A stretch of DNA of 44,488 bases from assembly GCF_014197855.1 (NCBI RefSeq), contig NZ_JACIGJ010000025.1, forward strand, positions 1-44,488. The letters are read 5' to 3'. The DNA comes from Roseospira marina (GTDB lineage: Bacteria > Pseudomonadota > Alphaproteobacteria > Rhodospirillales > Rhodospirillaceae). Position numbers and translations under genes: made by a program. A model generated the notes under the pieces. The model did not search any database. It was not told where the DNA came from and saw nothing but the letters and a program-made list of their open reading frames with translations. This document shows positions 6,906 through 28,174 of the stretch, piece by piece. Each line of letters starts with the position of its first letter. The first letter of the stretch is position 1.

Positions 6906-6936
6906 GGCGCGTCAACCTCCGGAACGGGAGCGAGGA

Positions 6937-8291: not shown

Positions 8292-8358
8292 ACGAAGTCC
8301 TCCATCCTGGAAAATGCAGCGTTCTGGCAGCAAGGGTGCGACACGCGCACGGCTCCGT

Positions 8359-10787: not shown

Positions 10788-12251
10788 GTGTCTGAAACAC
10801 CGTCGACGGATCAGAATGGAGCCGACGGCCCCCGCCCCGGGGATGCCGCGCCGGGCGGACCTGCGGCGGGCGCGCCCCCCACGGGAGGGTCGGGCGCCGG
10901 TTCCGGCGGGGGCGCGGGCAACGGCGGCGCGGGCCCAACCCCGCCTCCCACACCGGCGCCGGACCGCGGATCCGTGTGGACGCGGCCGTGGTTCCCGGTG
11001 CTGGTCGCCTGCATCCTGGCGATGGTGATCCTGGCCTTCCTGCTGCTGCCGGGCGTGCTGCGCTACCCGGAAACCCCGGTCGTGCAGGGCGGCCCCTCGG
11101 ACGCGCAAGCCCTGGACGCCCAGCGGGCCACCAATCAAGCCCTCGAAGAGCGGGTGGCGGTTCTCCGCCGGGTGCTCGAAACGGCGCAGTGTCGCGCCCC
11201 GGAGGGCTTCGTGCTGCCCGAGGGCGGGCTGCCGCCCATGCCGGGCCTGCCGGACGGCCTGCCCTCCACCGTGCCACCGGAAACCCTCCTCCCGCCGCTG
11301 CCGGAAACCAGCGTGGTGACACCACCGGAGCGGGGCGGCCCGGACGCCTCGGCGGACGCAACCGCACCGACCGAACCGGAAACGGGCGCGCCTCAGACCG
11401 CGCCACAAGCGGCGCACGTCGCGCTGCCGGACCTTCTTGATTCCTCCACCGTCATGGTGATCGCCATCGACGGAGAGTCGGCCAGCACCGGCTCCGGCGT
11501 AGCCATCAATGGCTCGCAAATCCTGACCAATCGGCACGTCATCGAGAACACGCTGGACGTCCCCGAGGCCAAGCTGTTCGTCACCAGCCGCGCGCTGGGC
11601 CATCTGGCGCCGGCGCGTCTGGTGGCGGTGTCGCCGAACACGAACTTCGGCGAGCCGGATCTGGCCGTGCTGGAGGCGCAAGAGGTCGCCAATCTGACCC
11701 CGCTGCCCATCAACACCGCCGTTTCCCGCCTGGACAACGTCGTGTCGGCCGGCTACCCGGGCGCCATCGTCCAATTGGATGAACAGTACCAGCGCCTGAT
11801 TCGGGGCGACGCGAGCGCAACGCCGGAATTGGTGGTGACCCAGGGTATGGTCACGGTCATCCAGAACGCCGACACGAACCCGATCGTCGGCCACACGGCC
11901 GCCATTTCCCAGGGCAACAGCGGCGGGCCGCTGGTGGACTTCTGCGGTCGCGTGGTCGGCATCAACACCTTCATGCCGCAGAACATGCAGACCATGGCAT
12001 ACGCGCTGTCGGCCCGCATGGTGAAGGCCTTCCTTGAGCAGAAGGGCATCCAGGCCACCTGGGCCAACTCCCGCTGCACCCCGGCCCAGACGGCCATGGC
12101 GCCCCCCGTCGCGACGCCACCTGCGGCCCCGCCCGCCGGGACGCCGGCGCCGGACGCCCCGGCCGCGCCCGCCGAGGCCGCGCCGCCGGCGGCAGCCTCC
12201 CCGCCCGCCGCCTCCCCGCCCGCAAGCGCGCGGCAACAACGGACGGAGTAG
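10788..12251 (+). CDS. Membrane-anchored trypsin-like serine protease
   Basis: This 487-residue protein starts at GTG 10788 after a strong GGGGGAGGA site. It has a Gly/Pro-rich cytoplasmic N-terminus and one membrane helix (about 71-91). A heptad-like helix ends at Cys135, then a Pro-rich spacer leads to a chymotrypsin-fold protease domain (about 220-425). The catalytic triad is intact: His250 in TNRHVIEN, Asp291 in EPDLAVLE and Ser378 in QGNSGGPLVD. It resembles the Deg/HtrA-like trypsin domain, but no PDZ domain follows; the tail is Pro/Ala-rich. The active site should face the periplasm. It is the first gene of the rightward set, 102 bases before the SrfA-like gene. Substrates are unknown and may be partners encoded nearby. 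Confidence 0.85.
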   Translation: MSETPSTDQNGADGPRPGDAAPGGPAAGAPPTGGSGAGSGGGAGNGGAGPTPPPTPAPDRGSVWTRPWFPVLVACILAMVILAFLLLPGVLRYPETPVVQGGPSDAQALDAQRATNQALEERVAVLRRVLETAQCRAPEGFVLPEGGLPPMPGLPDGLPSTVPPETLLPPLPETSVVTPPERGGPDASADATAPTEPETGAPQTAPQAAHVALPDLLDSSTVMVIAIDGESASTGSGVAINGSQILTNRHVIENTLDVPEAKLFVTSRALGHLAPARLVAVSPNTNFGEPDLAVLEAQEVANLTPLPINTAVSRLDNVVSAGYPGAIVQLDEQYQRLIRGDASATPELVVTQGMVTVIQNADTNPIVGHTAAISQGNSGGPLVDFCGRVVGINTFMPQNMQTMAYALSARMVKAFLEQKGIQATWANSRCTPAQTAMAPPVATPPAAPPAGTPAPDAPAAPAEAAPPAAASPPAASPPASARQQRTE

Positions 12252-12353
12252 ACGCCGAGACGTCTTGTCCGCAACCCTCGCCCCCGACCCCGCGCGCCGC
12301 GACCAGACGGCCGCGCGACCGGCGGGCGAACCGGCACGGAGCCCGAGTACGGT

Positions 12354-13748
12354 ATGCGTCCCCTCGCCACTCTCTCGCACGAAACGCTCCAGCCGATGGC
12401 GCCAAGCGGGCGGCGCGTCACCGATTCGCGTGAGGAAATCGTCGGTTACCTCCGCGACATGTTGTCCGAGGACCACGCCGCGCTGCTCGCGGACGGGGCG
12501 CTCGACCCGACGACGGGCAACAGCACCTGGTACACCGACCTGCCCGGCGAGGCGATGCGCTACGACGCCGCGCCGCCGGAGCGGCAGGAGGCCGCCTACC
12601 AGCGCCTCCAGACCCTTCTGGCCGACATCCGGGCCGAAACCGACCGCCTGTCGGCCAGCGGCGCCCGGGGCGACCAGTTGCTGGCCCGCATGCTGTCGGC
12701 CGCCATCGAGGTGCCGGACACCGGGGCGATCTACATTGTCGGCGACCGTCCGGTGCTGGTCGGCTGGGGCCACCTGCGCGCCGGGGATGATCCGCCACGC
12801 GGCGTGATCGGCTCGCTGGACCCCCCGCAACGTACCGCGGCCCCCCCGCCGCCACCGCCGCAGCCACCGCCACAGGTCGCGCCGACGGCCCCCGCGCCGC
12901 CGCCCTCGCCCATCACCCCGGTCGGGGGCGGTGTCGCGGCGCTGGAGCCGGAGCGGCGCACGTCGTTCTGGCCCCTGCTGCTGTTGTGGGTGCTGCTGGC
13001 CTTGTTGCTGGCGGCCATCCTCATCTCGCTGCTCAGCGCCTGCGGCGTCGGCCTGCCGCCGCGCGCCCTCGGCCCCATGCTGGTCGGGCGCTGCCCGATC
13101 CCGGTCGCGGCCGACCCCGACCGTTCGGCACTGGTCGCCGAATCCCAGCACGGGCGCAGCCTGGAAGACACCATCCGGCGGCTGGAACTCGCCATACAGG
13201 AGCGCGCCGGTCAGTGCGACGCCGAGGTCGCCGCCCTGCCCGAACCGGTGCCGGAGCCTGTGCCCTCCGTCGCACCGGAATCGGAGCCGGAACCGGAACC
13301 AGCCGAGGTCGTGCCGGACACGCAGCCCCCGGACGAGGACGACGAGGAGTTCGACCGCCGGGTCGAAGAACAGGGCGGCCAGTCGGACGAAACCCAGATC
13401 ACCCTGATGTGGGACAGCACCGACGACCTGGACCTGAAGCTGCGCTGTCCCGACGGCCAGCTCATCAGCTATCAGAATCCGTCGCGCTGCAACGCCGTGC
13501 TGGACGTCGACGTCAACGAAAGCGACCGTAATCTGGTGCGCGATGCGGTGGAAAACATCGTGTTCCAGGGGCCGCCGCCGCCGGGCCAATATCAGGTTGT
13601 GGTCGACGTCTACAAGACGCGCGAGAGCGCCAACCGGCCGATTCCCTTCCGCGTCCGTCTGGTCATCACGGGCGAGCGGCGGGTGATCGAAGGCGTGTCG
13701 CGACCACCGCACCGGCCGCTGACCATCGCGGAGTTCACGCTGCCGTAA
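12354..13748 (+). CDS. srfA: SrfA-like membrane protein with C-terminal beta-sandwich
   Basis: This 464-residue protein matches the SrfA family by pattern and position just before srfB. The N-terminal cytoplasmic domain (about 18-165) has the WYTDLPGE, ERQEAAYQRLQTLL and IYIVGDRPVLVGWG segments. A Pro-rich linker and one membrane helix (about 205-228) follow, then cysteines at 230, 247 and 288 around a helix. An acidic Pro/Glu spacer leads to a C-terminal periplasmic domain (about 340-464) opening with LMWDSTDDLDLKLRCPDG. That domain resembles the DUF2135/YfaP-type beta-sandwich. The cysteine layout recalls the leftward membrane proteins. ATG 12396 is an alternative start; neither has a strong ribosome binding site. 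SrfA function is unknown. Confidence 0.72.
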   Translation: MRPLATLSHETLQPMAPSGRRVTDSREEIVGYLRDMLSEDHAALLADGALDPTTGNSTWYTDLPGEAMRYDAAPPERQEAAYQRLQTLLADIRAETDRLSASGARGDQLLARMLSAAIEVPDTGAIYIVGDRPVLVGWGHLRAGDDPPRGVIGSLDPPQRTAAPPPPPPQPPPQVAPTAPAPPPSPITPVGGGVAALEPERRTSFWPLLLLWVLLALLLAAILISLLSACGVGLPPRALGPMLVGRCPIPVAADPDRSALVAESQHGRSLEDTIRRLELAIQERAGQCDAEVAALPEPVPEPVPSVAPESEPEPEPAEVVPDTQPPDEDDEEFDRRVEEQGGQSDETQITLMWDSTDDLDLKLRCPDGQLISYQNPSRCNAVLDVDVNESDRNLVRDAVENIVFQGPPPPGQYQVVVDVYKTRESANRPIPFRVRLVITGERRVIEGVSRPPHRPLTIAEFTLP

Positions 13749-13818
13749 CGCCGTCGTCGGCGTGCCACGCGGCAGCGGCGCGACCCCGCGCAAGACCAGA
13801 GTCCATCGGAAGCCCGAC

Positions 13819-16800
13819 ATGCTGAAGCCGCTCACTCTTACCGCCGACATCGCCGTGGACGCACAGGTCATCACTCTGGTGCCCTACAGCGGAATCCAGT
13901 TCATTGATTTCGGGTTCAACGCGGAGACGGTGCGGTCGACGGCCAGCTTCTGGGAGCGGGAATCGGCCGAGGCGCCGCCGGAGGGCGCGGTGGCGGCCGG
14001 CGTGGAGACGCCGGACGACGAGTCCGGACCGAAGGCGTGGTACCAGCTCTTCAAGCTGGAACAGGATCCGGAGACGCGCGAGCTGGTGCTGCCGGGCTCC
14101 AAGGACGTTCCACCCGAGGACGAGGTCTACCGGATCGCGCCCAAGAAGATCCTCGAAAACTACGCCCACCAGTGGATTCCGGTCCCTATGCTGCGCCAGC
14201 GCGATCGGGGCCCGGGCGGCCGGCCGATCCTGGACATCGGCCCCACCAACTGGGCGCGGGCCATGATCGTGCCCCTGGACACGCCGGAGACGGACGGCAC
14301 CACCCACCGGGTCGTGCTGGCCGTCGACACCACGCTGGCGGAACGCTCGCAGCGGCGGGGCTATTCGGCGCCGACCCGGGAGGATTCCGACCGCGAGGAC
14401 GATTTCCTGCTCGGCGAGTCCTTCGAAACGGTGTCGTGGTTCTGCGCCCTGCCCTGGATACGGGAATGGCTCGATCGGCTGTACCGCACGACCCAACGCC
14501 GGGGCCGAAGCCCGAAGGACGGCCACCGGCTGGAGGCGTACGCCCTGTACGTCGCCTTCGTCGACCTACTGCACGCCGCTCTTTCGCCGCCGCCGCTGAA
14601 GCTGCTCGACACCATGTCGGAGTCCTCCAGCCGGTCGAGCATTCCGGTCGATCTGGTCTTGGACATCGGCAACAGCCGCACCTGCGGCGTGCTGATCGAG
14701 GACCAGCCGGGCACCGACGAGGTAGACTTATCGCAGTCGTACGCGCTGGAGTTGCGCGACCTGGGCAACCCCTGCCATGTCTATTCCGACCCGTTCGAAA
14801 GCCGGGTGGAGTTCAGCCGCGCCGAGTTCGGGTTTTCCGACCTCAACCGGCACGCCGGCCGGGGCACCGCGTTCAACTGGGCCAGCCTCGTGCGGGTGGG
14901 GCCGGAGGCGGCGCGCCTCGCCGGCTCCTCGGTGGGCAACGACGGCGCCACCGGCCTGTCGAGCCCCAAGCGGTACCTGTGGGACACCCAGGAAGCCCGC
15001 ATGCCCTGGCGCTTCAACGGCCGCGCCAGCGACACCGGCACGCTGGAGCCGGTCGTCGGCGGCAACCTCATGCGCTACCTCACCGACACCGGTGGCGTGC
15101 TGGCGACGCTGAGCCGCAAACAGCGACCGGCCATGACACCGCTGTTCTCGCGCTCGTCCCTGTTCATGATGATGCTGGTGGAAATCCTTCAGCAGGCGCT
15201 GAGCCAGATCAACGCCCCCGCCGTGCGCGCCGAGCGGCGGCGGCGCAACGAGCCACGCCACCTCGCCCGCGTCATCATGAGCCTGCCGTCCGCGACCCCG
15301 CTGCCGGAGCTGAAGATCCTGCGGGAGCGCGCCCGCGAAGCGGTCGCCCTCGTCTGGGCCACGATGAAGGCGGAGGCTTACGACGCCCCCCTGCCCCCAC
15401 GCCCGGAAATCGACCCGAAGTGGGACGAGGCCAGCGCGACCCAGCTCGTCTACCTGTTCACCGAGATCAAGCACAACTTCCAGGGCGACATGCGCGCCTT
15501 CTTCCGCCTGATGGGGCGCGAGCGGCCGCGCATCGGCGAAAGCCTGCGGGTTGCCAGCATCGACATCGGCGGCGGCACCACCGACCTGATCGTCACCACC
15601 TACACCCACGAACAGGGCCGCGCGATCCGCCCGCACCAGGAGTTCCGCGAGAGCTTTCGGCTGGCGGGGGACGACATCCTCCAGGCCGTCGTCGAACAGC
15701 AGGTGATGCATGCCATCGGCGCCGCCCTGCGCGCGGCCGGGGTGCACGACGATACGCCCATCCTGACCGAAGCCTTCGTCGGCGACCGCGCCGGCCTGTC
15801 GGAGCAGCAGCGCCACCGGCGCAAACAGTTCGTGAACAAGTGCCTGATCCCGATCGCCCTGCACCTGATGCATCGCTCGGAGGAGGTCGCGCTCGGCGTC
15901 GATCCCCCGCCCACGACCGTGCGGTGGGAGGAGATCTTTCCGCCCGAAAGCGAGACGGCCCCCAGCGACGCCGTGCTCCGCTACCTCGACGAACCGCTGT
16001 CCGAGATTCTGGGGCGCCCCTGGTCGATCCGCGAGGTGCCGTTCGTGGTCGACATGCAGGCGCTGACCAACACCGTCTGGGGGGTGATCGGCGACGTGCT
16101 GCGGCTGTTCGGTGAGGTCGTGCACGCGATGAACTGCGACATCCTGCTGCTGTCCGGGCGCCCGTCGCGCCTGCCGGCGGTGCAGGAGCTGGTGTTCGCG
16201 CTGGCGGCGGTGCCGGCGGACCGCGTGGTGCCGATGCACCATTACGCCGCCGGAAGCTGGTACCCGTTCCGCGACGCCCTGGGCCGCATCGAGGATCCGA
16301 AAACGACCGCCGTCGTCGGCTCCGCCCTGTGCGAGCTGGCCAGCGGGCAAATCCACCGCTTCCGCATCGAGTCGCACCGGCTGGAGCTGAAATCCACCGC
16401 CCGCTACATCGGGGAAATGGAACAGTCCGGCTACATCAAGAACGATCGCCTGTTCTTCAGCGACCTCGACCTGGACGACCCCAGCCCCAAGCCGCTGTCG
16501 CACACCTTCGAGATGCTCGCCCCCATGGAGATCGGGTTCCGCCAGTTGGGCATCGAACGCTGGCCGGCCACGCTGCTGTATCGGCTCGGCCCCTCGGACC
16601 GGCGCGACTTCCAGCGCTATCCGGCGCCCTGGCGCTGCGTCATCGAACGCTCGGACATCGACCAGGACGATGTGGACAGCGAGGAAAAGAAAGAGATCTT
16701 CAGCATCGAAGAGGCCGTGGACCGGGACGACAACGATGTTCCCCCGAACCGCGTGCACCTGCGGCTCCAGACGCTACAATCCGAACAGGGCTATTGGCTG

Positions 16801-16824
16801 GACACCGGCATCCTGCGCCTGACA
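13819..16824 (+). CDS. srfB: SrfB family actin/Hsp70-fold protein
   Basis: This large cytoplasmic protein of about 1,000 residues belongs to the SrfB family, named from a Salmonella virulence-regulated operon. The N-terminal YSGIQFIDFGF segment is characteristic. It carries the three nucleotide-binding signatures of the actin/Hsp70 fold: phosphate-1 DIGNSRT at 282, phosphate-2 DIGGGTTD at 582 and an adenosine-type LSGRPSRLP around 779. It is therefore probably an ATP-binding, conformationally switching protein. I place the start at ATG 13819, with GGAAG six bases upstream, rather than the GTG at 13762. The coding frame ends with the TAG at 16825-16827. It lies 70 bases after srfA and before srfC. 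No membrane segment is present. Its partner and job are unknown. Confidence 0.9.
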
Positions 16825-16956
16825 TAGGGGACGGGACCAGGACCCGGGGGATATGGGGGCCAGACGGTCCGCAGACGGTGGGGGCCGGCCTATGACGCGC
16901 CAGCCGACCCCACACAGGGCAGGACCGACACAGGATAGAAGGGCGGGACCAAGCGA

Positions 16957-19671
16957 ATGGCTGTAGAGGCGAACAAGCTGCTGGAGACATGCGACGCGAC
17001 CGTGACCGCCGGACGCGATTCCCTGGACTGGTTTCAGGACAATGGGGAGCTGGTGCGCCACGACGCCGTCCAGATCAACCGGGCGTTCCGCCGCCACGTC
17101 ATGGCGGCGCGCAAGATGCGCACGGCCATCGAACGCCCGATGTGCGTCGGCGTGTTCGGCGCCAGCCAGGCCGGCAAGAGCTACCTGATCTCGGCCCTGG
17201 CGCGGAAGGGCACCAATCCGCTGACCACGACGCTCGGCGGCAAGCGCATGGACTACCTCGCCGACATCAACCCGGAGGGCGGCAAGGAGGCCACCGGCCT
17301 CGTCACCCGCTTCACGGTGCGGCCCGTTCCCGCCCTGCCCGACGCGCCGGTCAGTCTGCGCCTGCTGACCGAGACGGACATCATCAAGATTCTCGGCAAC
17401 AGCTACCTCGCCGACGTGGACCACAGCACGGTGGACCCGCCGGACGGCGAGGTCATTTCGGCGCTGATGGACACCCTGCGGGGGCGCATGAAGACCGCGC
17501 CGGTTGACCGCCTGACCGAGGACGACGTTTTCGACCTGCAGGAGTATTTCGACCGCACCTTTGGCGGGGTGGAGCGCGTCAAGGCGTTGCGGGTCTCCTA
17601 CTGGGAGGCCGCGGCCGAACTCGCCCCCTATCTGGAAATCGCCGACCGCGCCACCCTGTTCGCGATCCTGTGGGACGACCTGAGCGCCTTCACCGACGTC
17701 TATGTCCGCCTGCAAAAGGCGCTCGCCCAGTTGGGCTTTCCGTCGGAAGCCTGTTGCGGGCTGGAGGGCCTGCAACCGCGCAACCAGAGCATCATCAACG
17801 TCGATACCCTGCACGACCTGGGCCAGCCGAACGCCGCCGGCACCGTCACCCTGCGGTCCCTGAACGGGCAGTCGGCCACGGTGTCGCGCGCCGACGCCAC
17901 CGCGCTGATCGCCGAGTTGGCCATCCAGATCGACGAACAGCCCTGGGACTTCTTCGAGCACACCGACCTGCTCGACTTCCCCGGCGCGCGGGCCCGCGAG
18001 AGCATCCGCGACATTCACGGCTATCTGGCCGATTCCAGCAAGGTCTGGGTGTTCTTCCTGCGCGGCAAGGTCGCCTATCTGTACGAGCGGTACTGTGCGG
18101 ATCAGGAACTGACCAGCATGCTGCTCTGCGTCGGTCCCTCCAACCAGGAGGTCGTAACCCTGCCGGCCATGGTCAAAAGCTGGATCGAGGCCACCCACGG
18201 CGAACGCCCGGAGGACCGCGCCAAGCAGGACACCGCGCTGTTTCTGGTGCTGACCAAGTTCGACATGGAATTCGCCGACAAGAAGGGCAGCGACAAGACC
18301 GACCTGTCGACGCGCTGGACGACCCGGCTGGAGGCCTCGTTCCTGCACTTCTTCGGCAAGCAGGACACCTGGCCCTACGAGTGGGACGGCAAGAACAGGC
18401 CGTTCCAGAACATTTTCTGGGTCCGCAATCCGAACATCAAGGACGAGGCCCTGCTGGACTACGACGAGAGCGACCACGAGATCGGCATCCGCGCCACCGC
18501 TCAGGACCGCATCGCCAAGCTGAAGGCCGGCTACATCCAGAACGGCGAGGTCCAGACCTACGTCGGCGAGGCGGAGTTGAAGTGGGACGCCGCCATGAAG
18601 CTCAACGACGGCGGGATCGGGTTGCTGGCCGAGCGGCTGCGCCCCGTCTGCCGGCCGGAGCTGAAGCTGCGCCAGATCGAGGGCCGGCTGTCCGATCTTC
18701 GCGAGCGCATGGGCCAGCGCCTGAAGGCCTACTACGTCTCCGGCGACCGCGAGGCCGAGCGCCTCAAGCGCCGCCAGGAGTTGGAGGACACCGTGATCCC
18801 CTGCCTGATCGACTGCATGGAGGCGACGCGCTTCGGCGTGCTGCAACGCCGCCTGATGGTCGAGGCCAAGGATATGGAGCGGGTGTTCAAGCAGATGCGG
18901 TTTCGCTTCAGCCGCCCGCGCGCCCCGGACCAGCCCGCCGCCCCAACCAGCGCCCCGGCCCCCCGCCCGCGCGGCTTCGGCATGAACCTGCGCGACCGGG
19001 TCAAGCCGAGCCCCGGCAACGGCAACGGACATGGCGACGGACACGGCACCGGCGCGCCGGACGGCGAGGACGCCGGCAAGCCCGCCGCGACCAACGGGCA
19101 CGACTCCGCCTCGGCCTTCGTCGACGCGGTGTTGCAGGCCTGGGCCGCCCAGATCCGCGACTTCGCCCAGGACGCGCAGGCCTGCCAGTACTTCCTGTTC
19201 AACCCGACCGCGTTCGACACCCTGGTGAACGAACTGCTGATCGGCTCGGAACGGTTGGCCATCGCCGACAGCGCGGCCGAGACGCTGCGCGACTGGATGC
19301 GTCTGTCCATCGACTCGCACCAGACCGCGCCCGGCGCCGGCATCATCGCCGCCAACGCGGTCAACGGCTACCTGCGCAGCCTGGGCTTCGACGGTCGGGA
19401 GGAAGCCCGCCGCCCGCGCGTCGCAGAGGGCGACGGCGAGCGGCCGATCTTTCCCAAGCGGCCGGACAGCGGCCCCCTGCGGCTGGGAGAGGACCCGCTG
19501 CCCTACGACATGAACTATTGCCTCGACTGGATCGAGGCCATCCGGGTCCTGACCGAGGAGAACGCCAGCGGCGGGACCGACGCCAACACCCCCTCCAACC
19601 GGACGCTCGGCGGGATTCTGGCGGCGCTCGGCGCGGTCCCGGCCCCGGTGAGGGACGCGGCCCATGACTGA
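16957..19671 (+). CDS. srfC: SrfC family dynamin-like P-loop GTPase
   Basis: This 904-residue protein is of the SrfC/putative virulence factor family. The segment VFGASQAGKSYLISAL and the following NPEGGKEATGLVTRF are strongly diagnostic. It has a Walker A G68-x4-GKS, a DFPG motif at 340-343 matching the GTPase G3 box and TKFD at 433-436 matching G4, so a GTPase of dynamin-like size and layout is likely. Residues about 650-700 are a low-complexity Pro/Gly/His linker before a helical C-terminal domain. No membrane helix is obvious. The gene overlaps the next one by eight bases, suggesting translational coupling. Nucleotide specificity is inferred from motifs only. Confidence 0.9.
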   Translation: MAVEANKLLETCDATVTAGRDSLDWFQDNGELVRHDAVQINRAFRRHVMAARKMRTAIERPMCVGVFGASQAGKSYLISALARKGTNPLTTTLGGKRMDYLADINPEGGKEATGLVTRFTVRPVPALPDAPVSLRLLTETDIIKILGNSYLADVDHSTVDPPDGEVISALMDTLRGRMKTAPVDRLTEDDVFDLQEYFDRTFGGVERVKALRVSYWEAAAELAPYLEIADRATLFAILWDDLSAFTDVYVRLQKALAQLGFPSEACCGLEGLQPRNQSIINVDTLHDLGQPNAAGTVTLRSLNGQSATVSRADATALIAELAIQIDEQPWDFFEHTDLLDFPGARARESIRDIHGYLADSSKVWVFFLRGKVAYLYERYCADQELTSMLLCVGPSNQEVVTLPAMVKSWIEATHGERPEDRAKQDTALFLVLTKFDMEFADKKGSDKTDLSTRWTTRLEASFLHFFGKQDTWPYEWDGKNRPFQNIFWVRNPNIKDEALLDYDESDHEIGIRATAQDRIAKLKAGYIQNGEVQTYVGEAELKWDAAMKLNDGGIGLLAERLRPVCRPELKLRQIEGRLSDLRERMGQRLKAYYVSGDREAERLKRRQELEDTVIPCLIDCMEATRFGVLQRRLMVEAKDMERVFKQMRFRFSRPRAPDQPAAPTSAPAPRPRGFGMNLRDRVKPSPGNGNGHGDGHGTGAPDGEDAGKPAATNGHDSASAFVDAVLQAWAAQIRDFAQDAQACQYFLFNPTAFDTLVNELLIGSERLAIADSAAETLRDWMRLSIDSHQTAPGAGIIAANAVNGYLRSLGFDGREEARRPRVAEGDGERPIFPKRPDSGPLRLGEDPLPYDMNYCLDWIEAIRVLTEENASGGTDANTPSNRTLGGILAALGAVPAPVRDAAHD

Positions 19672-20926
19672 TATCGACGTCGCCATCGACGAGGATGTCG
19701 GCAGCCCCGGCTACGCCCGCATCCTGGTGCCCGGGGCGGGCGCAGCGGGCCAGAACGCGCGCTTCCGCATCCAGCGTAAGGACCGGGACGAAAACAACTG
19801 CCTCGCCCCCAACGGCTGGCGCAGCGGCGCCACCGATCTGGTCGCCTGGAAAACGGTGGTCGACGGCCCGGACCTGATCCTGCACGTCGGCCCGGAGATC
19901 GTCGATGTGGTGCCCAACGACATCGCGGTGGAAGTCTCCGTGCCGGCGGTCGGGGTGATCGAGTACGTGTTCTGGCCCGACCTGCCGACGTCGAGCGTGA
20001 CGCCCGGCCAGTTGAACGAGTCCGGACCGGCGGCGCCGAAAGCGCCCCCTCCCCGACCGACACCCCCGCCGCCAGCCCCCCCGCCGCCGGTTCCGGCGCC
20101 CGAACCGCCGCCTCCGGAGCCGGAACCGTCGGACCGAACGGAACTGGAGCCTCCGCCCCAAGAGATGTGGGAGGACGACCCGCATGACATGGATATCCCC
20201 CACCCCGATGAGGCGGACGACGACGCGACGCGGGTGTTTCACCCGGCCCCCCCGCACGAGGACGAGCACCATGGGCGCGGTCTGCTGTTCTGGCTGCTGA
20301 TCGGCCTCGTGCTGGCGATGGTCTCGGCGGTCGCGGTCTGGGCCCTCCTGACCTTCGTGCTGCGGGAACCAACGCCGCCCGCGCCGGAGCCCCCGAATCC
20401 CGTCGTCCTTGGGCCGGGACCGGACGCGTCAGCCGCGGAGGAGCCCGAGCCCCCGCCGGAGCCAGACCCCCAACAGGAGCCCGAACCGGAACCCGAACCG
20501 GAACCCGAACCGGAGCCGGCCGCGACGGTGTCCTGCACCGAGCCCTATGCCTATGTCCGCGAGTACATCGAGAGCGAACCCATGGCCTTCAACACCTGGG
20601 TCACGCACGCCAAGGCGCTGGCGACCGAGCAAGCCGGCTGCAACGACGCCATCGCCCTGCTCCTGCTGGAAGCGGCCGACAACGGCAACGCCGACGCCCT
20701 GCGCTATATGGCGGAACTGGCCGACCCGCTGGTCGAGCACGACGACCGGATCATGTTCACCGAACCGGATCCGCTCAACGCGCTACGCTATTATTCGAAC
20801 GCGGCCGCCGCCGGGGACACGGAAGCGGACGCGGCGCGCACGCGATTGCTCAACCACCTGCGACAGCAGGCCGCGCAGGGCGATACGCAAGCCCGCACGG
20901 TTCTGGAGACCCTCGGAATCGAGTGA
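19664..20926 (+). CDS. Membrane protein with cytoplasmic beta domain and periplasmic Sel1-like repeats
   Basis: I do not recognise a named family for this 420-residue protein. Residues 1-115 look like a compact beta-rich domain (ILVPGAGAAGQNARFRI, DLILHVGPEIVDVV). A Pro-rich linker, an acidic stretch and one membrane helix (about 207-232) follow. A Pro/Glu repeat encoded by 12-base DNA repeats comes next. The C-terminal part (about 290-420) has Sel1/TPR-like helical repeats (LLLEAADNGNADALRYMAEL, NAAAAGDTEADAAR). The N-terminus should be cytoplasmic and the repeats periplasmic. Its start codon lies inside the end of srfC, so it is likely made with SrfC. It may link SrfC to the periplasmic partners. 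Confidence 0.72.
   Translation: MTDIDVAIDEDVGSPGYARILVPGAGAAGQNARFRIQRKDRDENNCLAPNGWRSGATDLVAWKTVVDGPDLILHVGPEIVDVVPNDIAVEVSVPAVGVIEYVFWPDLPTSSVTPGQLNESGPAAPKAPPPRPTPPPPAPPPPVPAPEPPPPEPEPSDRTELEPPPQEMWEDDPHDMDIPHPDEADDDATRVFHPAPPHEDEHHGRGLLFWLLIGLVLAMVSAVAVWALLTFVLREPTPPAPEPPNPVVLGPGPDASAAEEPEPPPEPDPQQEPEPEPEPEPEPEPAATVSCTEPYAYVREYIESEPMAFNTWVTHAKALATEQAGCNDAIALLLLEAADNGNADALRYMAELADPLVEHDDRIMFTEPDPLNALRYYSNAAAAGDTEADAARTRLLNHLRQQAAQGDTQARTVLETLGIE
20480..20517 (+). repeat. 12-base tandem repeat encoding Pro-Glu linker
   Basis: A unit close to CCCGAACCGGAA is repeated about three times in frame. It encodes a Pro-Glu-Pro-Glu run just outside the membrane helix of the Sel1-like protein. Such repeats can change copy number by slippage, altering linker length without breaking the frame. 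Confidence 0.6.
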
Positions 20927-21054
20927 CCGGGCGCGAATAACCGGGACCGCGTGACCGCCATACCCTATTGGGGGGTGTGTGACGGGACTCAGGTGCCCCG
21001 CCGCCGGCCATGCCTGGCGCAGAAACGCAACGTTTTGGGTTTTGGGAGAACACC

Positions 21055-23109
21055 ATGCCGCGGTCAGGATCGGACAGCCCCCAGGATCGAGATCAGCGCG
21101 GGACGGCAGGGCCCCGCGTGGGGTTCTCCGCACCCCGCCGAGGGCGAGGATGGGGGCCGCGGTGGAACCTGGGCCTGCATCTGGCCGTTCTGGCCCTGGC
21201 CCTGGCCGGCGCGTTCGGGCTCGCCGGCCCGGCGGACGCCCGCGACCCCATGCTGATCGAAGGCAAGCGCACCCTGTTCCAGCGCGTGCTGATGCGGCCG
21301 GGCGCCGAGCTGCGTGCCCAGCCCAACCTCGCCGAGGCGGGCACGACGGTGGAGCCGTTCTCCGTCTACTACGTGTTTGACCGGCGCAACATCGGCGGTC
21401 AGGAGTGGGTCGAGGTCGGGGCCGACCGCGAGGGCACGCGCACGGCCTTCGTGCCGACGCCCGCGACCATCGACTGGAAGCACTCCATGATCCTGGCCTT
21501 CACCAATCCGGCGCCGCGCAGCGGACCGGATGGGCCACGCCCGGCCATGATCCTGGACACCAAGGAATCCCTGGTCGACCTGCTCAACGACGAAGCCATG
21601 GTGCCGAAGAGCGAAGCTTGGCGCCGCGAGGCCATCCAAGCCCGCGCCAACGACACGACGGTTCCGGACACCAACCCGATCGTGGCGCTGGAGCCGCCCG
21701 AGTACGTCGATCTGCAAGAGAACTTCTATCTGCTCCCGGTGTTGGACTACGAGGACACGCTGTTCCGCTCGCTGCGGCGCAAGGTCCTGCTGATGCAGGT
21801 GGCCTCGGTCACCAAGAAGGACCCGCCCGCCACCAACGCGCCCATTACGCCGGCGGGCCCCTTCCGCGTCGGCATCGTGTTCGTGATCGACGCCAGCGCG
21901 TCCATGAACCCGTACATCGAGCGCACCCGCCAGACCATCCGGGCGGTGTTTCAGCGCATGCAGTCCGCCGACATCAAGGCCGAGGTCAGCTTCGGCATGG
22001 TCGCCTTCCGCGACAACATCAACGCGGTGCCCGGCCTGGAGTACACCACACGGATCGTCGCCCCGCTGGAGCTGGAAACGAACCCGACGCAATTCCTGCG
22101 GCGAATCCAGACCCTGAACGAAGCCCCGGTCAGCAGCCAGGGCTTCATGGAGGACGCCCTCGGCGGCATCGACGCGGCGCACAACATGCCGGCTTGGCGC
22201 GACTTCAACGCCCGCTATCTGGTGCTCATCACCGATGCCAGCACACGCGCCTTGGGCGACCCGCTGGCGTCCGTCAATATCCTGCCGGAGCACCTGAACC
22301 AGCAGGCCCAGGAAGAGGGCTTTGCGATCCTGACGCTGCACCTGAAAACGGCGGCCGGCGTCAACGATCACGCGGTGGCCGAACAGCAATACCGCGCCCT
22401 GTCGCGGTTCCAGGACCGCGTGCTGTACTATCCGATCGAGAACGGCGACGTCACCACCTTCGGCCGCACGGTGGACACGGTCACGGCCGACCTGCTGGAC
22501 ATGGCGCGGACCGCCATTGATGACTCCCTGCCCCCGGCGGCGACGCCCGAGCAGGAAGCCCTGCGGCAGGTCGGGCGGGCCATGCGGCTGGCTTACCTCG
22601 GCCGCCAGCGCGGCACCCGTGTGCCGGACGTCACGCAGGGGTGGCTCGCCCACCTCGACCCGCAGGACCTGCGCCAGGCGGTGGTCGAGCCGCGCGTTCT
22701 GCTGACCCGCAACCAGCTCAATGACCTGAAGACCACCATCGACCGGCTGACCACCCTCGCCCGCACCAACCGGCTGCGCCCGGCCGAGTTCTTCGGCCGC
22801 CTGCAAAGCGTTGCCGGCAACATGGTGCGCGACCCGGAGCGCATCGCCCAGGGCCAGATCGAAAGCCTCGGCGACGTGGTCGGGGAGTACCTGGACGACC
22901 TGCCCTATGAAAGCGAGATCATGGGCCTGACGGAACGGGATTTCCTGTCCATGGGGCCGGTCGGCCAGCTCAACCTTTTGCGCAACCTGGAAAGCAAGCT
23001 GGAGCTGTACCGCCGCTTCGACGGCAACGCGGACCTCTGGGTCGCCCTGGCCCCGGACGAACCCGAGGGCGAGAAGGTCTATCCCGTGCCCCTAACCGCG
23101 CTGCCCTAG
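21055..23109 (+). CDS. Exported SH3-like and vWA domain protein
   Basis: This 684-residue protein begins at ATG 21055, which has a GGGAGAA site; an ATG at 21010 would add 15 unsupported residues. A long basic N-terminus precedes a hydrophobic signal segment ending near ADA (about 40-62). Next comes an SH3-like region (about 70-135; FQRVLMRPGAELRAQPN, EWVEVGAD). A von Willebrand A domain begins at IVFVIDASASM, with the DxSxS metal motif at D279. VLITDAS supplies the third loop. The threonine of the classical metal site is not obvious, so metal binding may differ from the other vWA protein. The C-terminal 200 residues are mostly helical. It is followed after seven bases by the ABC ATPase gene. 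It is probably a periplasmic partner of that transporter. Confidence 0.8.
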   Translation: MPRSGSDSPQDRDQRGTAGPRVGFSAPRRGRGWGPRWNLGLHLAVLALALAGAFGLAGPADARDPMLIEGKRTLFQRVLMRPGAELRAQPNLAEAGTTVEPFSVYYVFDRRNIGGQEWVEVGADREGTRTAFVPTPATIDWKHSMILAFTNPAPRSGPDGPRPAMILDTKESLVDLLNDEAMVPKSEAWRREAIQARANDTTVPDTNPIVALEPPEYVDLQENFYLLPVLDYEDTLFRSLRRKVLLMQVASVTKKDPPATNAPITPAGPFRVGIVFVIDASASMNPYIERTRQTIRAVFQRMQSADIKAEVSFGMVAFRDNINAVPGLEYTTRIVAPLELETNPTQFLRRIQTLNEAPVSSQGFMEDALGGIDAAHNMPAWRDFNARYLVLITDASTRALGDPLASVNILPEHLNQQAQEEGFAILTLHLKTAAGVNDHAVAEQQYRALSRFQDRVLYYPIENGDVTTFGRTVDTVTADLLDMARTAIDDSLPPAATPEQEALRQVGRAMRLAYLGRQRGTRVPDVTQGWLAHLDPQDLRQAVVEPRVLLTRNQLNDLKTTIDRLTTLARTNRLRPAEFFGRLQSVAGNMVRDPERIAQGQIESLGDVVGEYLDDLPYESEIMGLTERDFLSMGPVGQLNLLRNLESKLELYRRFDGNADLWVALAPDEPEGEKVYPVPLTALP

Positions 23110-23116
23110 GCGCGGC

Positions 23117-23851
23117 ATGACGGCGCCCCTGGTGCACATTCGCGACGCGCGCGTCCCGCGCATCGGCCGGGATCGCCGCTTTGTGCTGGAGGTGCCCGCC
23201 TTCGACATCGCCCCGGACGCGGTGATCGCCCTGGTGGCCCCCAGCGGGCGGGGCAAGAGCACGCTCATCAACCTGCTGGCCCTGGCGACGCCACCCGACC
23301 CAGGCGCGCAATTCACGGTGGCCGGGGTGAACGTGGCCGCCCTGTGGGCGCGCGGGCGGCACGACCACCTCGCCCGGATTCGCGCCAGCCTGTACGGCTA
23401 TGTTGTGCAGACCGGCGCCCTGCTCGCCAGCCTGACCGCGCGCGAGAACATCGCCCTGACCCAGCGGCTTGCGGGACGGCCGGACGAGCGCCTGATCGAC
23501 GCGCTCGCGGAGCGGCTGGGCATCCGCGCGCTGCTGTCCGACCGGCCGGCCTCGCTGTCGGTGGGGGAGCGCCAGCGTGTCGCCATCGCCCGCGCCGTGG
23601 CCCACCGCCCCCATCTGGTGCTGGCGGACGAACCGACCGCCTCGCTCGATCCGGTCAACACGGCGACCGTCATGGATTTGCTGCTCGACCTGCGCGGCGC
23701 ACTGGGGTTCGGCCTGATCATCGCCAGTCACGACTTGGAGACGCTCGACCGCTTCGGCATCGCCCGCGTCGAACCCACCCTGACCGCGCAGGGCGCAGAA
23801 ACGCGGGCGGTGTTCGTGTATCCGGCGCCCTCCGGGGAGCCCCCGGCATGA
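23117..23851 (+). CDS. ABC transporter ATPase, LolD/MacB type
   Basis: This 244-residue ATP-binding subunit resembles the LolD/MacB/FtsE group. The Walker A is APSGRGKST (41-49), where the usual first glycine is alanine. The Q-loop is GYVVQTG. The signature is LSVGERQ instead of LSGGQ. Walker B LVLADEPTASLD and the switch histidine in ASHD are intact. Hydrolysis is probably retained despite these changes. The gene overlaps the permease by four bases (ATGA), so the two form one transporter. LolD-type transporters extract lipoproteins or drive periplasmic machines rather than import solutes, which fits the lipoprotein-rich locus. Substrate is not known. Confidence 0.88.
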   Translation: MTAPLVHIRDARVPRIGRDRRFVLEVPAFDIAPDAVIALVAPSGRGKSTLINLLALATPPDPGAQFTVAGVNVAALWARGRHDHLARIRASLYGYVVQTGALLASLTARENIALTQRLAGRPDERLIDALAERLGIRALLSDRPASLSVGERQRVAIARAVAHRPHLVLADEPTASLDPVNTATVMDLLLDLRGALGFGLIIASHDLETLDRFGIARVEPTLTAQGAETRAVFVYPAPSGEPPA

Positions 23852-25104
23852 GCCGCGCCCCAACACGCAAGCCCCGGCGCTCCCCCGTCGGATCCTTGGC
23901 GTTAGCCGTCTACATCGCCGTGCGGCAGGTCCGGCACACTTGGCTGACCACCGCCTGCTACGCCATCGCGCTGGCCGCGGTGCTGGCGCCCCTGCTGGTC
24001 CTGTTCGGGCTGCGCAACGGCGTCGTGACGGAGATGGAAACCCGCCTGCTGCGCGATCCCGACACCCTGCGTATCACGCCGCTGAAGACCGGCACCCTGG
24101 AGCCCACCCTGCTGGAGCAGCTCGCCGCGCAGCCCGGCACGGCGTTCCTAGTGCCACGTACACGGCCGCTGTCGCTGACCGTGGACCTGGAGGCCGCCGG
24201 CGGCGCCACGCTGTCCGCCGACCTGGAACCCACGGCGCCCGGGGATCCGGTCCTGGCGCCCGGCCCCATCCCCGCCCCCGGATCGGATGCCATCGTGCTG
24301 AGCGACTCGCTGGCCCGGGCCCTGGGACGCCGCACCGGGGACACGGTGCCGATCCTGGTCACCCGCACCCTGGATGGCACCTACGAGCTCGCCGAGGTCG
24401 AGGCGACGGTGCTGGACATTCTGCCCCCGACCGGGCCCGCTCGCGCGGTCGGCTTCGTGTCCCTGCCCCTGGTGATCGACATCGAAAACTTCCGCGACGG
24501 CCACCGCGTGCCCGCGCGCGGCTGGGGCGCCCGTGGCACGGAGCAGAGCGGCCCGCGCCCGTTCGCCGGCTTCCGGCTGTACGCCCGCGACCTGGAGGCC
24601 GTGCCCGCGCTGGTGGCGTGGCTGCGTGAGCACGGCATTCCCACCCATTCGTCGATCGAGGACGTCCAGGGCCTGCGCATGCTCGACCGTAGCCTGGGCA
24701 TCGTGTTCGCCATCATCCTGGGCATCGGCTCGGCCGGCGTGCTGCTGTCGCTGGGCTCCAACCTCTGGGCCAACGTGGAGCGCAGCCGCGCCGATCTGGG
24801 CATCGTGCGGCTGATGGGCGGCACGTCGGGCGTGCTGGTCGCCATTCCGGTCATCGAGGCGCTGCTGATCGCCCTGTCCGGGTTCGTGCTGGGGGCGTTG
24901 GGATACGCGGTCAGTGATGCATTGCTGTCAGTCGCCTTCGCAGCACCCGGGCTGGAGGACGGCAACATCTGCACCCTCAGCCCAACGCACTGGGTCATCG
25001 CGCTGCTCGCCACGACCGGATTCGCGGCCCTGGCCTCGGTTCAGGCCGCCGCCCGCACCTTGAGCATCCCGGCCGCCGAGGGCCTTCAGGGCGGGCCGAC
25101 CTGA
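23848..25104 (+). CDS. FtsX/LolCE/MacB-like ABC permease
   Basis: This 418-residue permease has the four-helix layout of the FtsX/MacB group. One N-terminal membrane helix (about 33-54) is followed by a large periplasmic domain (about 60-275) and three C-terminal helices. The last of these follow an ERSRADLGIVRLMGG coupling-helix-like segment. The start overlaps the ATPase stop by four bases. Members of this group transmit ATP-driven movement to the periplasm (lipoprotein release, efflux or cell wall enzyme control). It ends the rightward set, 12 bases from the convergent histidine kinase gene. Substrate is not known. Confidence 0.85.
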   Translation: MSRAPTRKPRRSPVGSLALAVYIAVRQVRHTWLTTACYAIALAAVLAPLLVLFGLRNGVVTEMETRLLRDPDTLRITPLKTGTLEPTLLEQLAAQPGTAFLVPRTRPLSLTVDLEAAGGATLSADLEPTAPGDPVLAPGPIPAPGSDAIVLSDSLARALGRRTGDTVPILVTRTLDGTYELAEVEATVLDILPPTGPARAVGFVSLPLVIDIENFRDGHRVPARGWGARGTEQSGPRPFAGFRLYARDLEAVPALVAWLREHGIPTHSSIEDVQGLRMLDRSLGIVFAIILGIGSAGVLLSLGSNLWANVERSRADLGIVRLMGGTSGVLVAIPVIEALLIALSGFVLGALGYAVSDALLSVAFAAPGLEDGNICTLSPTHWVIALLATTGFAALASVQAAARTLSIPAAEGLQGGPT

Positions 25105-25116: not shown

Positions 25117-26496
25117 TCAGCCCTTGGGCACCGGTAGCGTGATGCGGGCCGCGAGCCCGCCCCCGGGGGCGTCGTCCAGCGCCAGCGCACCACCCCAGGC
25201 GGCCAGGATATCCTGAGCGATGGCCAGCCCGAGCCCCGAGCCCTCCCCCTGCGCGTCCAGCCGCTCGCCCCTGTCCAGCACCGCCCGCCGCCGGTCGGCG
25301 GGAATGCCGGGACCGTCATCGCGCACGGTCAGCGTGACACCGCCGACGTCCCGCGTGCCGGTCAGCCCCACGGCACGCGCGGCATGACGGGCCGCGTTCT
25401 CGACCAGCGCCCCCAGAACCTCCGTCAGGTCGTCGCCGTCGATCGGCGCCACGAGGTCGGCGGGGATGGCATTCCGCCACTCCAGCGGCTCCCCCTGAGG
25501 GGTGCGCCGCACCACGCCCACCACCCGCGTCGCGACATCGGCGGGGCGGCAGGTGGCGGGGGTCACGCCCGCCGCCAGCCGGGCGCGCGCCAGTTCCCGG
25601 TCCACATGGCGCCGCATGGCGGCGGCGACCTGCGCGATGCCGTCGGCCAGCGGCCCCTGGTCCAGGGCGCGGACCCGGTCGATATCGCCCGCCAGGGCCT
25701 GCAAGGGCGTCTTCAGCCCGTGGGCCAGATCGGCGGCGCGGGCACGGGCGCGCGTCACATCGGCCTCCCGCGCGGCCAACAGGGCGTCGACCTCACCGGC
25801 CAGCGGGCGCACCTCGGCGGGAAAGGCGGTGCCGAGACGGGTCGCCCGGCCCGAGCGCACAGCCTCCACCCGCTCCCGGATGGCCTGCAACGGCCGCAAG
25901 CCCACCGAGACCTGCGCCCAACTCGCCACCATCAGACCGAGGCCGAGCACGGCGAGATATGGCAGCAGGTCGGCGGCGAAGGCGGCGGTGGCGGTGCGCA
26001 CCTGAGCCCGGTCCAACGCCACGGCGGCGCGCACCGGCACCCCGCCGAGCCGCTCCGGCAGGATCACCCGCCGTTCCAGCACCAGAAGGCGCTGCCCGGC
26101 CGGCCCGGTCAGGCTGTGTTCGTGCACCTGCCCATCGGCGAGATCGTCGGGCGACAGCGCCAAGCGGGCGTCCCACAGCGAGCGGGAGCGCAGCACGGCC
26201 TCCGGGGTCTCGACCTGCCAATACAGACCCGACAGGGGGTGGTCGAACCGCGGATCGGCCGGACGGCGGGCCTCGATCAGGGCGTCGGCGGCGGTGCGGT
26301 CCAGGCCCGCGATGACCTGATCAAGATGGGTCGCCAGCTCGGCCACCGCCCGCCGCTCCACATGGCGCTCGAACAGCAGCGCCAGCCCGACCCCGGCCAG
26401 GGCCAGCGCCACCAGGATCGAGACCGCGCCCGCCACCAGCAGCCGCAGCCGCACCGACGACAGGGACAGCCTCGTCCAGCCCTTCCCCCCTAACAT
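25117..26496 (-). CDS. PhoQ-like sensor histidine kinase
   Basis: This 459-residue membrane kinase has two hydrophobic segments (about 17-40 and 185-205) around a periplasmic sensor region, then a HAMP-like stretch. The phosphoacceptor histidine is H259 in DLAHGLKTPLQAL, the sequence style seen in PhoQ-like kinases. ATP-binding boxes are ENAARHA (N), DDGPGIP (G1) and GSGLGLAIAQDI (G2). The start at ATG 26496 overlaps the response regulator stop by seven bases, so the pair is translationally coupled. The neighbouring PepSY and cytochrome genes suggest a metal, redox or envelope cue. The ligand is not known. Confidence 0.9.
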   Translation of the reverse strand: MLGGKGWTRLSLSSVRLRLLVAGAVSILVALALAGVGLALLFERHVERRAVAELATHLDQVIAGLDRTAADALIEARRPADPRFDHPLSGLYWQVETPEAVLRSRSLWDARLALSPDDLADGQVHEHSLTGPAGQRLLVLERRVILPERLGGVPVRAAVALDRAQVRTATAAFAADLLPYLAVLGLGLMVASWAQVSVGLRPLQAIRERVEAVRSGRATRLGTAFPAEVRPLAGEVDALLAAREADVTRARARAADLAHGLKTPLQALAGDIDRVRALDQGPLADGIAQVAAAMRRHVDRELARARLAAGVTPATCRPADVATRVVGVVRRTPQGEPLEWRNAIPADLVAPIDGDDLTEVLGALVENAARHAARAVGLTGTRDVGGVTLTVRDDGPGIPADRRRAVLDRGERLDAQGEGSGLGLAIAQDILAAWGGALALDDAPGGGLAARITLPVPKG

Positions 26497-27158
26497 GCGT
26501 CGGTGCCGGCCAGTGTGTAGCCGAAGCCGCGCCGCGTTTCGACGACGCCCGGGCCGAGCTTTCGGCGCAGACGGGCCACCACAGCCTCCAGCGCGTTCGC
26601 CTCGCGCGCGTCCTCGTCGCCATAGAGGTGATCGAGCAGTTCCGTCGGCGGCACGACCCGGGCACGGTGATGCGCCAGATAGGCGAGCAAGCGGTATTCC
26701 AGGGGCGAGACCGAGACCGGCACGCCATCGACGGCCACCGCCATCGTCCGCGTGTCGACCGTCAGCCGGCCTGCCGTCAAAACGGCCGTGGCCTGTCCGA
26801 CCGAGCGCCGGATAAGCGCGCGCACCCGGGCCACCAGTTCCTCCATGCGGAACGGCTTCGGCAGGTAGTCGTCGGCACCGGCGTCGATGCCCTCGACCCG
26901 CTCCACCCAGGTGCCGCGCGCGGTCAGGACCAGCACGGGCATGGTCCGCCCCCCGGCGCGCCACCGTTTCAGGACCGCGAGTCCATCCATGCCCGGCAAC
27001 CCAAGATCGAGCACGATCAGGTCGAAGTCCTCCGTATCGCCCAGGAACCACGCATCCTCACCGTTGGCGCAAGGAACCGCCCGATAGCCGGCGGCCTCCA
27101 GCGCCCGGCCGGTGTCGGCGGCAATGCGGGCATCGTCCTCGACCAAAAGGATCCGCAT
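26490..27158 (-). CDS. OmpR/PhoP-family response regulator
   Basis: This 222-residue regulator has a receiver domain with the acidic pocket EDD at 7-9, the phosphoacceptor D51 in VLDLGLPGMDG and the usual lysine in LPKPF. An OmpR-type winged-helix DNA-binding domain follows (about 125-220), with the typical SPLEYRLLAYLAHH and VVARLRRKLG segments. It is encoded between the PepSY gene and its kinase, all leftward. It adjoins the PepSY stop directly (27158 is shared). The direct repeats at 27615-27640 are a likely target for autoregulation. Confidence 0.93.
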   Translation of the reverse strand: MRILLVEDDARIAADTGRALEAAGYRAVPCANGEDAWFLGDTEDFDLIVLDLGLPGMDGLAVLKRWRAGGRTMPVLVLTARGTWVERVEGIDAGADDYLPKPFRMEELVARVRALIRRSVGQATAVLTAGRLTVDTRTMAVAVDGVPVSVSPLEYRLLAYLAHHRARVVPPTELLDHLYGDEDAREANALEAVVARLRRKLGPGVVETRRGFGYTLAGTDAC

Positions 27159-27610: not shown

Positions 27611-27614
27611 GTGC

Positions 27615-27668
27615 CTGACCTGTCCTGACAGCCCGCTGACGGCCCTGCTCAGGTCCCCGTCAGCGGGC
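27615..27668. promoter_or_regulatory. Candidate response-regulator operator between PepSY genes
   Basis: Three CTGAC direct repeats start at 27615, 27625 and 27636, spaced 10 and 11 bases apart (one helical turn). OmpR/PhoB-family regulators typically bind such repeats. The third repeat lies in the left arm of a perfect 12-base inverted repeat (27631-27642 and 27657-27668). A smaller CCTG-CT-CAGG palindrome sits in its loop. The site lies between divergent PepSY genes beside the response regulator operon. I infer it is the binding site of that regulator. Confidence 0.55.
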
Positions 27669-27739
27669 ATGCGGCAGGATGCACCCCAGAGCCGTGACGC
27701 CCGCCGTCGCGGCATCCCACGCATCACAGGAGACTCACC

Positions 27740-28063: not shown

Positions 28064-28071
28064 GACGGGCC

Positions 28072-28103: not shown

Positions 28104-28174
28104 CCCCGCTTCGCCGCCCCCCGTTCGGCCACCACCCGGGCCGAACCACACCCTGCCCGCAAAGGACCGCTGCC

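Follow-up and report, generated by a model that had tools for sequence, protein, structure and literature searches.

A kinase-less TagQRST/PpkA-type cassette beside srfABC in Roseospira marina suggests a separate envelope-damage response

The stretch analysed (the window) is the 44,488-nt contig NZ_JACIGJ010000025.1 of Roseospira marina, one of the contigs of a 4.6 Mb genome. It carries srfA-, srfB- and srfC-type genes in a rightward run (10788–25104) and, beside it, a divergent run on the minus strand (5661–10125). We read the two divergent runs as one system, with a probability of roughly 0.5, in which homologues of TagQRST and of the PpkA ectodomain would form an envelope sensor whose cytoplasmic output is SrfABC rather than a threonine kinase and a type VI secretion system (T6SS). 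This reading is drawn from homology, gene order, block-wise co-occurrence, the lack of any kinase found in the loci and the predicted folds of SrfB and SrfC. The srfABC genes have been filed as virulence factors with an unsettled molecular role, and TagQRST-PpkA has been studied as a trigger of the T6SS.

The exported vWA protein (21010–23109, plus strand), the ATP-binding cassette (ABC) ATPase (23117–23851, plus strand) and the permease (23848–25104, plus strand) are, as judged by homology and in this order, the counterparts of PpkA (its periplasmic part), TagT and TagS in the sensor of the T6SS threonine-phosphorylation pathway. The lead to the tag-gene identity came from the neighbourhood described by Campbell et al. 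2013 (PMC3608642). The vWA domain of the exported protein (PF00092) scores 33.2 bits against a Pfam cut-off of 23.8, and the hydropathy scan showed a signal-like stretch. Nine srf-linked vWA proteins, that of the window among them, gave a profile that was searched against 398 genomes sampled evenly across the phylum. Strong matches (E < 1e-100) came from 15 genomes; in a further 20 the match was weak and confined to a short vWA stretch. Of the 15, six have frames of 1017–1189 residues and no SrfC, and in all six a gene for the T6SS sheath protein VipB lies within ~13 kb. The profile matches these six frames at 1e-186 to 1e-194, covering positions 58–689 of 689. The four kinase-type loci that were fetched all show the order vWA-TagT-TagS-TagR-TagQ, and the N-terminal part of each of their vWA proteins is kinase-like (queries for the kinase search came from two of the four). 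A Pfam scan of one kinase-type protein placed Pkinase at residues 35–277, with PP2C, IcmF/TssM and DotU/TssL genes adjoining; PP2C, TssM and TssL homologues also lie beside the cassette of a second kinase-type locus. The same role profiles, whose seeds were srf loci from close relatives of the window, match both the kinase-type and the srf loci, and the order vWA-TagT-TagS-TagR is common to both. Thus, the strong profile match to kinase-bearing frames and the shared gene order indicate that the srf-linked vWA proteins are kinase-less counterparts of this PpkA type. The PpkA of Serratia marcescens has a different periplasmic domain, so not every PpkA is of this type (PMC6082577).

The assignment of the ATPase is clear (PF00005), and the same family follows the kinase-vWA gene in the T6SS loci. 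The permease, which belongs to the same family as its T6SS-locus counterpart, falls just under both Pfam cut-offs (MacB_PCD, PF12704, 26.6 vs. 27 bits; FtsX, PF02687, 24.9 vs. 25.5 bits), and the FtsX cut-off is passed by the permeases of two relatives. The nearest models are FtsE/LolD for the ATPase and MacB/LolCE for the permease. These affinities, and a periplasmic protease often found upstream, would suit a MacB/Lol-like machine that moves an envelope substrate, with the vWA protein, the TagR-like protein and the protease handling the substrate and SrfBC powering assembly or quality control. However, the vWA protein, ATPase, permease and TagR all have order-conserved counterparts in the kinase-type sensor loci, which makes a transport machine of this kind unlikely. 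The initial annotation had proposed a LolD/MacB-like transporter with periplasmic binding parts. Its gene types hold, but the reading proved too generic; an exporter of that sort was set aside because TagTS, within a TagQRST/PpkA-ectodomain sensor, fits better.

The divergent run, which the initial annotation left outside its span, would supply TagR and TagQ. The TagR-like protein (8359–10125, minus strand) has an FGE-sulfatase fold (PF03781, 104.5 bits) and is homologous to the product of the gene in the TagR position of kinase-type loci. A TagR homologue directly follows the permease in 9 of the 12 fetched loci from the window's genus, family and order. Two further features of this protein were considered and rejected: formylglycine-generating activity is unsupported, as there is no Cys in the region after GGS, and a CxxC-CxxC pair as a family feature is kept in 1 of 65. 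The putative TagQ-like glycine-zipper lipoprotein (7515–8405, minus strand) matches the Gly-zipper protein of a Klebsiella plasmid srf locus (phmmer E 3e-13); its Gly-zipper Pfam matches are under the cut-off and its lipobox was judged by eye. The open reading frame (ORF) opens at 8405, and the position of the lipobox makes a real start near 8291 likely. The third gene of the run encodes a second vWA-domain membrane protein, vWA2 (5661–6905, minus strand; VWA_2 30.1 bits, above the cut-off). A vWA2-like ORF is present in 21 of 100 SrfC loci (8 of the 21 served as seeds of the profile) and in none of the SrfC-less vWA loci.

The srf loci and the kinase-type loci differ in the kinase itself. No kinase-like ORF was found in any of the 59 loci with both SrfC and the vWA protein (phmmer E 1e-8), and Pkinase had no match at E <= 0.01 in the srf-linked vWA proteins (59 of 59), 48 of which matched VWA. 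Among the positives of the kinase search, L174 and L175 supplied two of the queries and only L176 and L177 are independent. No T6SS genes lie beside the window locus. VipB is present in 6 of 6 kinase-type genomes and in 88 of the 398 phylum-sample genomes; of the 36 genomes that have both SrfC and the cassette, 17, among them G031 from the window's family, showed no VipB (4 of 8 from the phylum sample and 13 of 28 further carriers). These 28 carriers were hand-picked from known ones and include near-duplicates (several Neoroseomonas/Roseomonas); completeness is given for 10 of them, of which 2 have VipB. The loci suggest that srfABC may be the output of an envelope-damage response separate from the T6SS.

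Alternatively, the sensor could act in trans on the T6SS of the cell, which is what TagQRST regulates in Pseudomonas aeruginosa, with srfABC as a T6SS accessory. Another contig of the window's genome carries VipB-type genes and, close to them, a kinase gene, and VipB is commoner in the genomes with SrfC and the cassette (19/36) than in the phylum sample. VipB is also found in 12 of the 13 SrfC-only genomes of that sample; however, 12 of these 13 genomes share one family code, and the figure is thus confounded by kinship. In the 34 kb read at the VipB genes of the window's genome, the role profiles matched no vWA protein, ATPase, permease or TagR. Regulation in trans was set aside as improbable because VipB was not found in about half of the carriers examined, and the lack of a kinase in the 59 srf loci also speaks against it.

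The sensor genes are kept or missing as a unit. Of at least 519 confirmed srfB loci, the best 80 in similarity to the window make up the named set; 56 of them were scorable (at least 9.9 kb after srfB) and 24 were dropped for short flanks. A gene was scored as present when it matched at E < 1e-30 no more than 13 kb from srfB. All four of vWA, ATPase, permease and TagR are present in 35 of the 56 loci, three in 1 and none in 20; srfC is directly adjacent in 16 of these 20. By these matches the block is all-or-none, and its order is kept in several lineages and on plasmids. The vWA protein matches 125 plasmid records (114 from Klebsiella), and the annotated plasmid stretches of one Klebsiella (L112) and one Cereibacter carry srfBC with the whole block. 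Among the 398 genomes, SrfC occurs in 21, a strong vWA match in 15 and both in 8, including the window's genome. SrfC is therefore present in 8 of the 15 strong-vWA genomes vs. 13 of the 383 others (Fisher p 7e-8, uncorrected for kinship). Nine of the 12 near-relative loci have the block, one breaks off at the end of its contig, and in a further one a divergent vWA protein is all that is present. The remaining near relative, of the same genus (G005, L022 and, on C638, L241), has protease-srfABC-TM/Sel1 and a divergent kinase-less vWA-TagT-TagS-TagR-TagQ on separate contigs.

Chance neighbours or a loose functional clustering with no shared mechanism would be compatible with the block-free srfB loci in many lineages and with the cassette, mostly without TagR, that stands without SrfBC in other families. 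However, the all-or-none block, on which this explanation was set aside, its order across lineages and plasmids and the co-occurrence leave it very unlikely. The initial annotation had treated the run as a single system that would fail if relatives carried srfABC without these neighbours at random. Such srfABC loci do occur, yet the vWA-ATPase-permease-TagR block is non-random. The protease tracks the block less tightly: among loci with sufficient upstream flank and with strand unscored, it is upstream in 20 of 25 four-gene loci vs. 2 of 15 no-gene loci, and the protease of L085 is on the opposite strand. As a separate observation on the srf genes, the Contendobacter/Competibacter loci L046, L055 and L058 have one or two extra genes between srfB and srfC, one of which belongs to a shared family (frames of 237–394 residues).

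A candidate link between the sensor and SrfBC is the transmembrane (TM)/Sel1-like protein encoded directly after srfC (19664–20926, plus strand). Hydropathy and alignment predict a cytoplasmic N-domain, a TM segment at residues 207–225 and a periplasmic Sel1-like part. An N-domain profile, built from ten SrfC loci that are themselves counted among the 99, matched 66 of 99 SrfC loci vs. 0 of 24 SrfC-less vWA loci (0/23 on excluding L179, which is cut at a contig end and whose genome has SrfC elsewhere). Because it was detected only at SrfC loci among those examined, the N-domain is the best candidate for the link to SrfBC, and it would occupy the position that the kinase takes in PpkA. The alignment of six short TM/Sel1 proteins showed that the cytoplasmic N-domain is missing from them. 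The membrane Sel1-like protein of the initial annotation is borne out in its TM segment and its overlap of 8 nt with srfC; Pfam Sel1 is not matched in the window protein, whereas a same-genus counterpart reaches 65.9 bits.

Further analysis showed that the cassette also stands with other neighbours. In the class of G367 (Gammaproteobacteria by inference), the vWA profile has matches at <=1e-20 in 22 of 274 genomes, and 19 stretches from 18 of these 22 genomes were read. One carries SrfABC with the cassette. Seventeen (L221–L236 and L238, from ten family codes) carry a short TM/Sel1 protein with vWA, ATPase and permease, without any match to SrfB, SrfC, a kinase, TssM or TssL; one of the seventeen also has a TagR homologue. 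The last combines vWA, ATPase and permease with TagR and TagQ, without a TM/Sel1 match. No other neighbour family is common to more than 4 of the 18 SrfC-less stretches. A third arrangement, in L178 and L114, joins a kinase-less vWA-TagT-TagS-TagR-TagQ set to a following S41-peptidase-like gene and lacks SrfBC. A quick tree was made of 87 vWA rows, with the vWA gene of G005 in it twice (L239 and L241). The six T6SS members make up one side of a branch whose support is 100, and the srf-linked rows need 5 changes vs. a shuffled mean of 24. The exceptions are the srf row L096, which lies outside the other srf rows, and the srf-less L233, which lies among them. Since the tree is unrooted, neither gain nor loss of the kinase is claimed.

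SrfB (13819–16827, plus strand) and SrfC (16957–19671, plus strand) are adjacent and clearly recognisable, as the initial annotation had stated (PF07520, 937 bits, cut-off 27.1; PF10139, 803 bits, cut-off 28.1). The predicted structure of SrfB resembles Hsp70. The model (pLDDT 89.9) has DnaK as its top match in the PDB (E 2e-15), with a TM-score of 0.64 to the DnaK nucleotide domain when normalised to that target. The phosphate motifs DxGN and DIGGGT[TS]D are kept in 45 and 40 of 46 members, respectively, and the strict adenosine motif LSGRPS in 20 of 46. The modelled SrfC (mean pLDDT 87.1) resembles dynamin-like GTPases. Its first PDB matches in Foldseek are SynDLP (E 4e-8) and BDLP (E 9e-6), both with a probability of 1.00, followed by Fzo1 and mitofusins at E above 0.001. 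The G1 (GxSQxGKS) and G3 (DFPG) motifs are present in 44 of 44 aligned SrfC members and a G4 motif of the [TN]KxD type in 34 of 44; the window protein has all three. Searches of the alignments against the sequences of solved structures gave nothing to E 1 for SrfB, nothing to E 0.1 for the vWA protein and a chance-level match alone (E 0.44) for SrfC. A literature search joining SrfC and dynamin returned papers whose titles and abstract openings concern other subjects. The gene before srfB, read as srfA in the initial annotation, encodes a protein with one TM segment (residues 208–226; gene 12354–13748, plus strand). It matches the NCBIfam SrfA family (NF040486, E 1e-23), but its 84.6 bits stay below the curated cut-off of 150. 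In Xenorhabdus, SrfA, SrfB and SrfC formed a complex on heterologous co-expression (PMC6950479).

SrfABC could instead be an exported cytotoxin, with the ABC genes and the vWA protein exporting or triggering it. Xenorhabdus SrfABC is toxic to insect and mammalian cells and its genes lie near genes of 'T6SS post-translational control' (PMC6950479), and Campbell et al. proposed that PpkA could trigger SrfC export (PMC3608642). However, the hydropathy scan showed no TM or signal-like stretch in SrfB or SrfC, both proteins keep their NTPase motifs and, going by record titles, environmental alphaproteobacteria account for many of the 80 named loci. TagS and TagT, moreover, are described as modulating signalling in P. 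aeruginosa (PMC6657622). An exported toxin is therefore not a likely account of the locus.

For the reading of the locus as a sensor with a SrfABC output, we infer the following steps. TagQ and TagR would feel outer-membrane damage in the periplasm, and the vWA protein and the TagTS ABC unit would pass this state to the inner membrane. The TM/Sel1 protein, via its cytoplasmic N-domain, would relay the state to SrfB, a predicted Hsp70-like ATPase, and SrfC, a predicted dynamin-like GTPase. SrfB and SrfC, with SrfA, would then act on the inner membrane, most likely in remodelling or sealing near the damage. The sensing steps draw on P. aeruginosa, in which the response to outer-membrane damage depends on TagQ and PpkA, and deletion of tagQ or ppkA abolishes T6SS assembly on force or polymyxin B nonapeptide (PMC11881912). 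A contact assay found tagQ and tagR to be essential and tagS and tagT to be modulating (PMC6657622), and the periplasmic domain of PpkA is probably bound by TagR (PMC6082577). DynA, a dynamin of Bacillus, has a role in membrane surveillance (PMC8844932).

Several observations weigh against this reading. The srfB loci without the sensor are common (20/56 scorable), and the sensor is thus not obligatory. Whole-genome searches of 15 genomes without the full cassette at the srf genes gave no vWA match at all in 13; the remaining two have the vWA gene on another contig (G005) or in a divergent form. The N-domain was detected in 47 of the 59 loci with SrfC and the vWA protein and not in the other 12. 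No signal stretch was flagged in the TagR-like protein by the hydropathy scan, and the evidence in the window for TagQ and for the permease is weak when taken alone. The TM-scores of the SrfC model are low for SynDLP and BDLP (0.18–0.25) and reach 0.50 at best, for a truncated mitofusin; of the 36 matches, just 2 have E <= 0.001. The published effects of SrfABC concern insect and mammalian cells and, in the accounts available, give no pointer to membrane repair.

The widest form of the proposal is held tentatively, as a possibility: SrfABC may be an envelope-breach machine in which a TagQRST/vWA sensor, on detecting outer-membrane damage, acts through the cytoplasmic domain of the TM/Sel1 protein to release a dynamin-like GTPase and its Hsp70-like partner, or to recruit them, to the inner membrane close to the breach, and the T6SS retaliation of Pseudomonas may be one specialised use of a general damage-sensing cassette with a swappable output (kinase and T6SS, SrfABC, or others in the loci where the cassette has neither beside it). 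Should the cassette prove to be a general module for sensing envelope damage, with outputs that can be exchanged, srfABC would gain a testable function in laboratory organisms that are not pathogens. The T6SS trigger would then belong to a wider family, as one of its branches, and would not be an invention of the T6SS; bacteria would have, in a dynamin-like GTPase governed by a sensor of outer-membrane damage, a direct counterpart of membrane repair set off by damage.

The layout of the rightward run agrees with the initial annotation, which had given eight ORFs with overlaps of eight and four bases: protease, SrfA, SrfB, SrfC, TM/Sel1-like, exported vWA, ABC ATPase and permease. The intergenic gaps are 102 nt (protease-srfA), 70 nt (srfA-srfB) and 129 nt (srfB-srfC). 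After srfC the genes are closer, with the TM/Sel1 overlap of 8 nt followed by 83 nt (TM/Sel1-vWA), 7 nt (vWA-ATPase) and an overlap of 4 nt (ATPase-permease). Gene starts are inexact, as the scripted ORFs run from stop to stop. The GC content by codon position is coding-like in all eight plus-strand genes, the TagR-like gene and the second vWA gene. A scan of the plus-strand gaps for terminator-like sites found none, and a promoter scan, which is uninformative at the G+C content of the window, also found none. The membrane-anchored trypsin-like protease (10788–12251, plus strand) stands as first described, with a Trypsin_2 match (PF13365, 79 bits) behind a single N-terminal hydrophobic stretch (residues 69–87), and is predicted to be periplasmic by topology. 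Single hydrophobic stretches likewise put SrfA and the TM/Sel1 protein in a membrane. The exported protein had been described as an SH3-vWA protein; the vWA part was upheld, whereas the SH3 part was not confirmed in the window protein and SH3_3 reached E <= 0.01 in 2 of 59 homologues. Just past the permease, convergent minus-strand genes (25117–28219) encode a histidine kinase, a PmrA/QseB-like response regulator and a PepSY protein, which are not counted in the system. The RpoA and SecY genes (29642–34059, minus strand) belong to a housekeeping region that flanks the locus.

The srf/tag neighbourhood is already in print in at least two papers (2013 and 2019). The literature found on srfABC, SrfB/SrfC and TagR/PpkA, in a search largely outside subscription papers, did not describe the lack of a kinase, the block that is kept or missing as a whole, outputs that can be exchanged, the folds or the breadth. 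In host-associated Deltaproteobacteria, srfABC is reported beside tagQ and ppkA, mostly also with tagRST (PMC3608642). The window locus resembles those loci in joining srfABC with tagQ, a vWA/ppkA gene and, as mostly there, tagRST. It differs in that the kinase was read there as a possible trigger of SrfC export and the loci, among Deltaproteobacteria, were host-associated only, whereas the loci here are kinase-less and frequent among the alphaproteobacterial ones.

Comparison with bacterial dynamin-like proteins (SynDLP, BDLP and DynA) shows that SrfC shares the G1, G3 and mostly the G4 motifs; its Foldseek probability to SynDLP and BDLP is 1.00. Unlike them, SrfC has no dynamin domain match in the Pfam scan of the window protein, has low TM-scores and is encoded beside an Hsp70-like partner and an envelope sensor. 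In comparison with the srfABC of Salmonella and Xenorhabdus, the window has clear SrfB and SrfC members with a SrfA-like gene before them; the srfABC of L186–L188 (family f72, enterobacterial by inference) has no matches to the sensor block, the TM/Sel1 protein or the protease. The closest correspondence of the sensor is with TagQRST-PpkA of the P. aeruginosa H1-T6SS, with homologues of the vWA/PpkA ectodomain, TagT, TagS, TagR and TagQ and the gene order of the kinase-type loci examined. However, no kinase was found here, no T6SS genes adjoin and the TagR and TagQ genes are on the opposite strand. To this sensor the window locus adds SrfABC and a TM/Sel1 protein with a predicted cytoplasmic domain.

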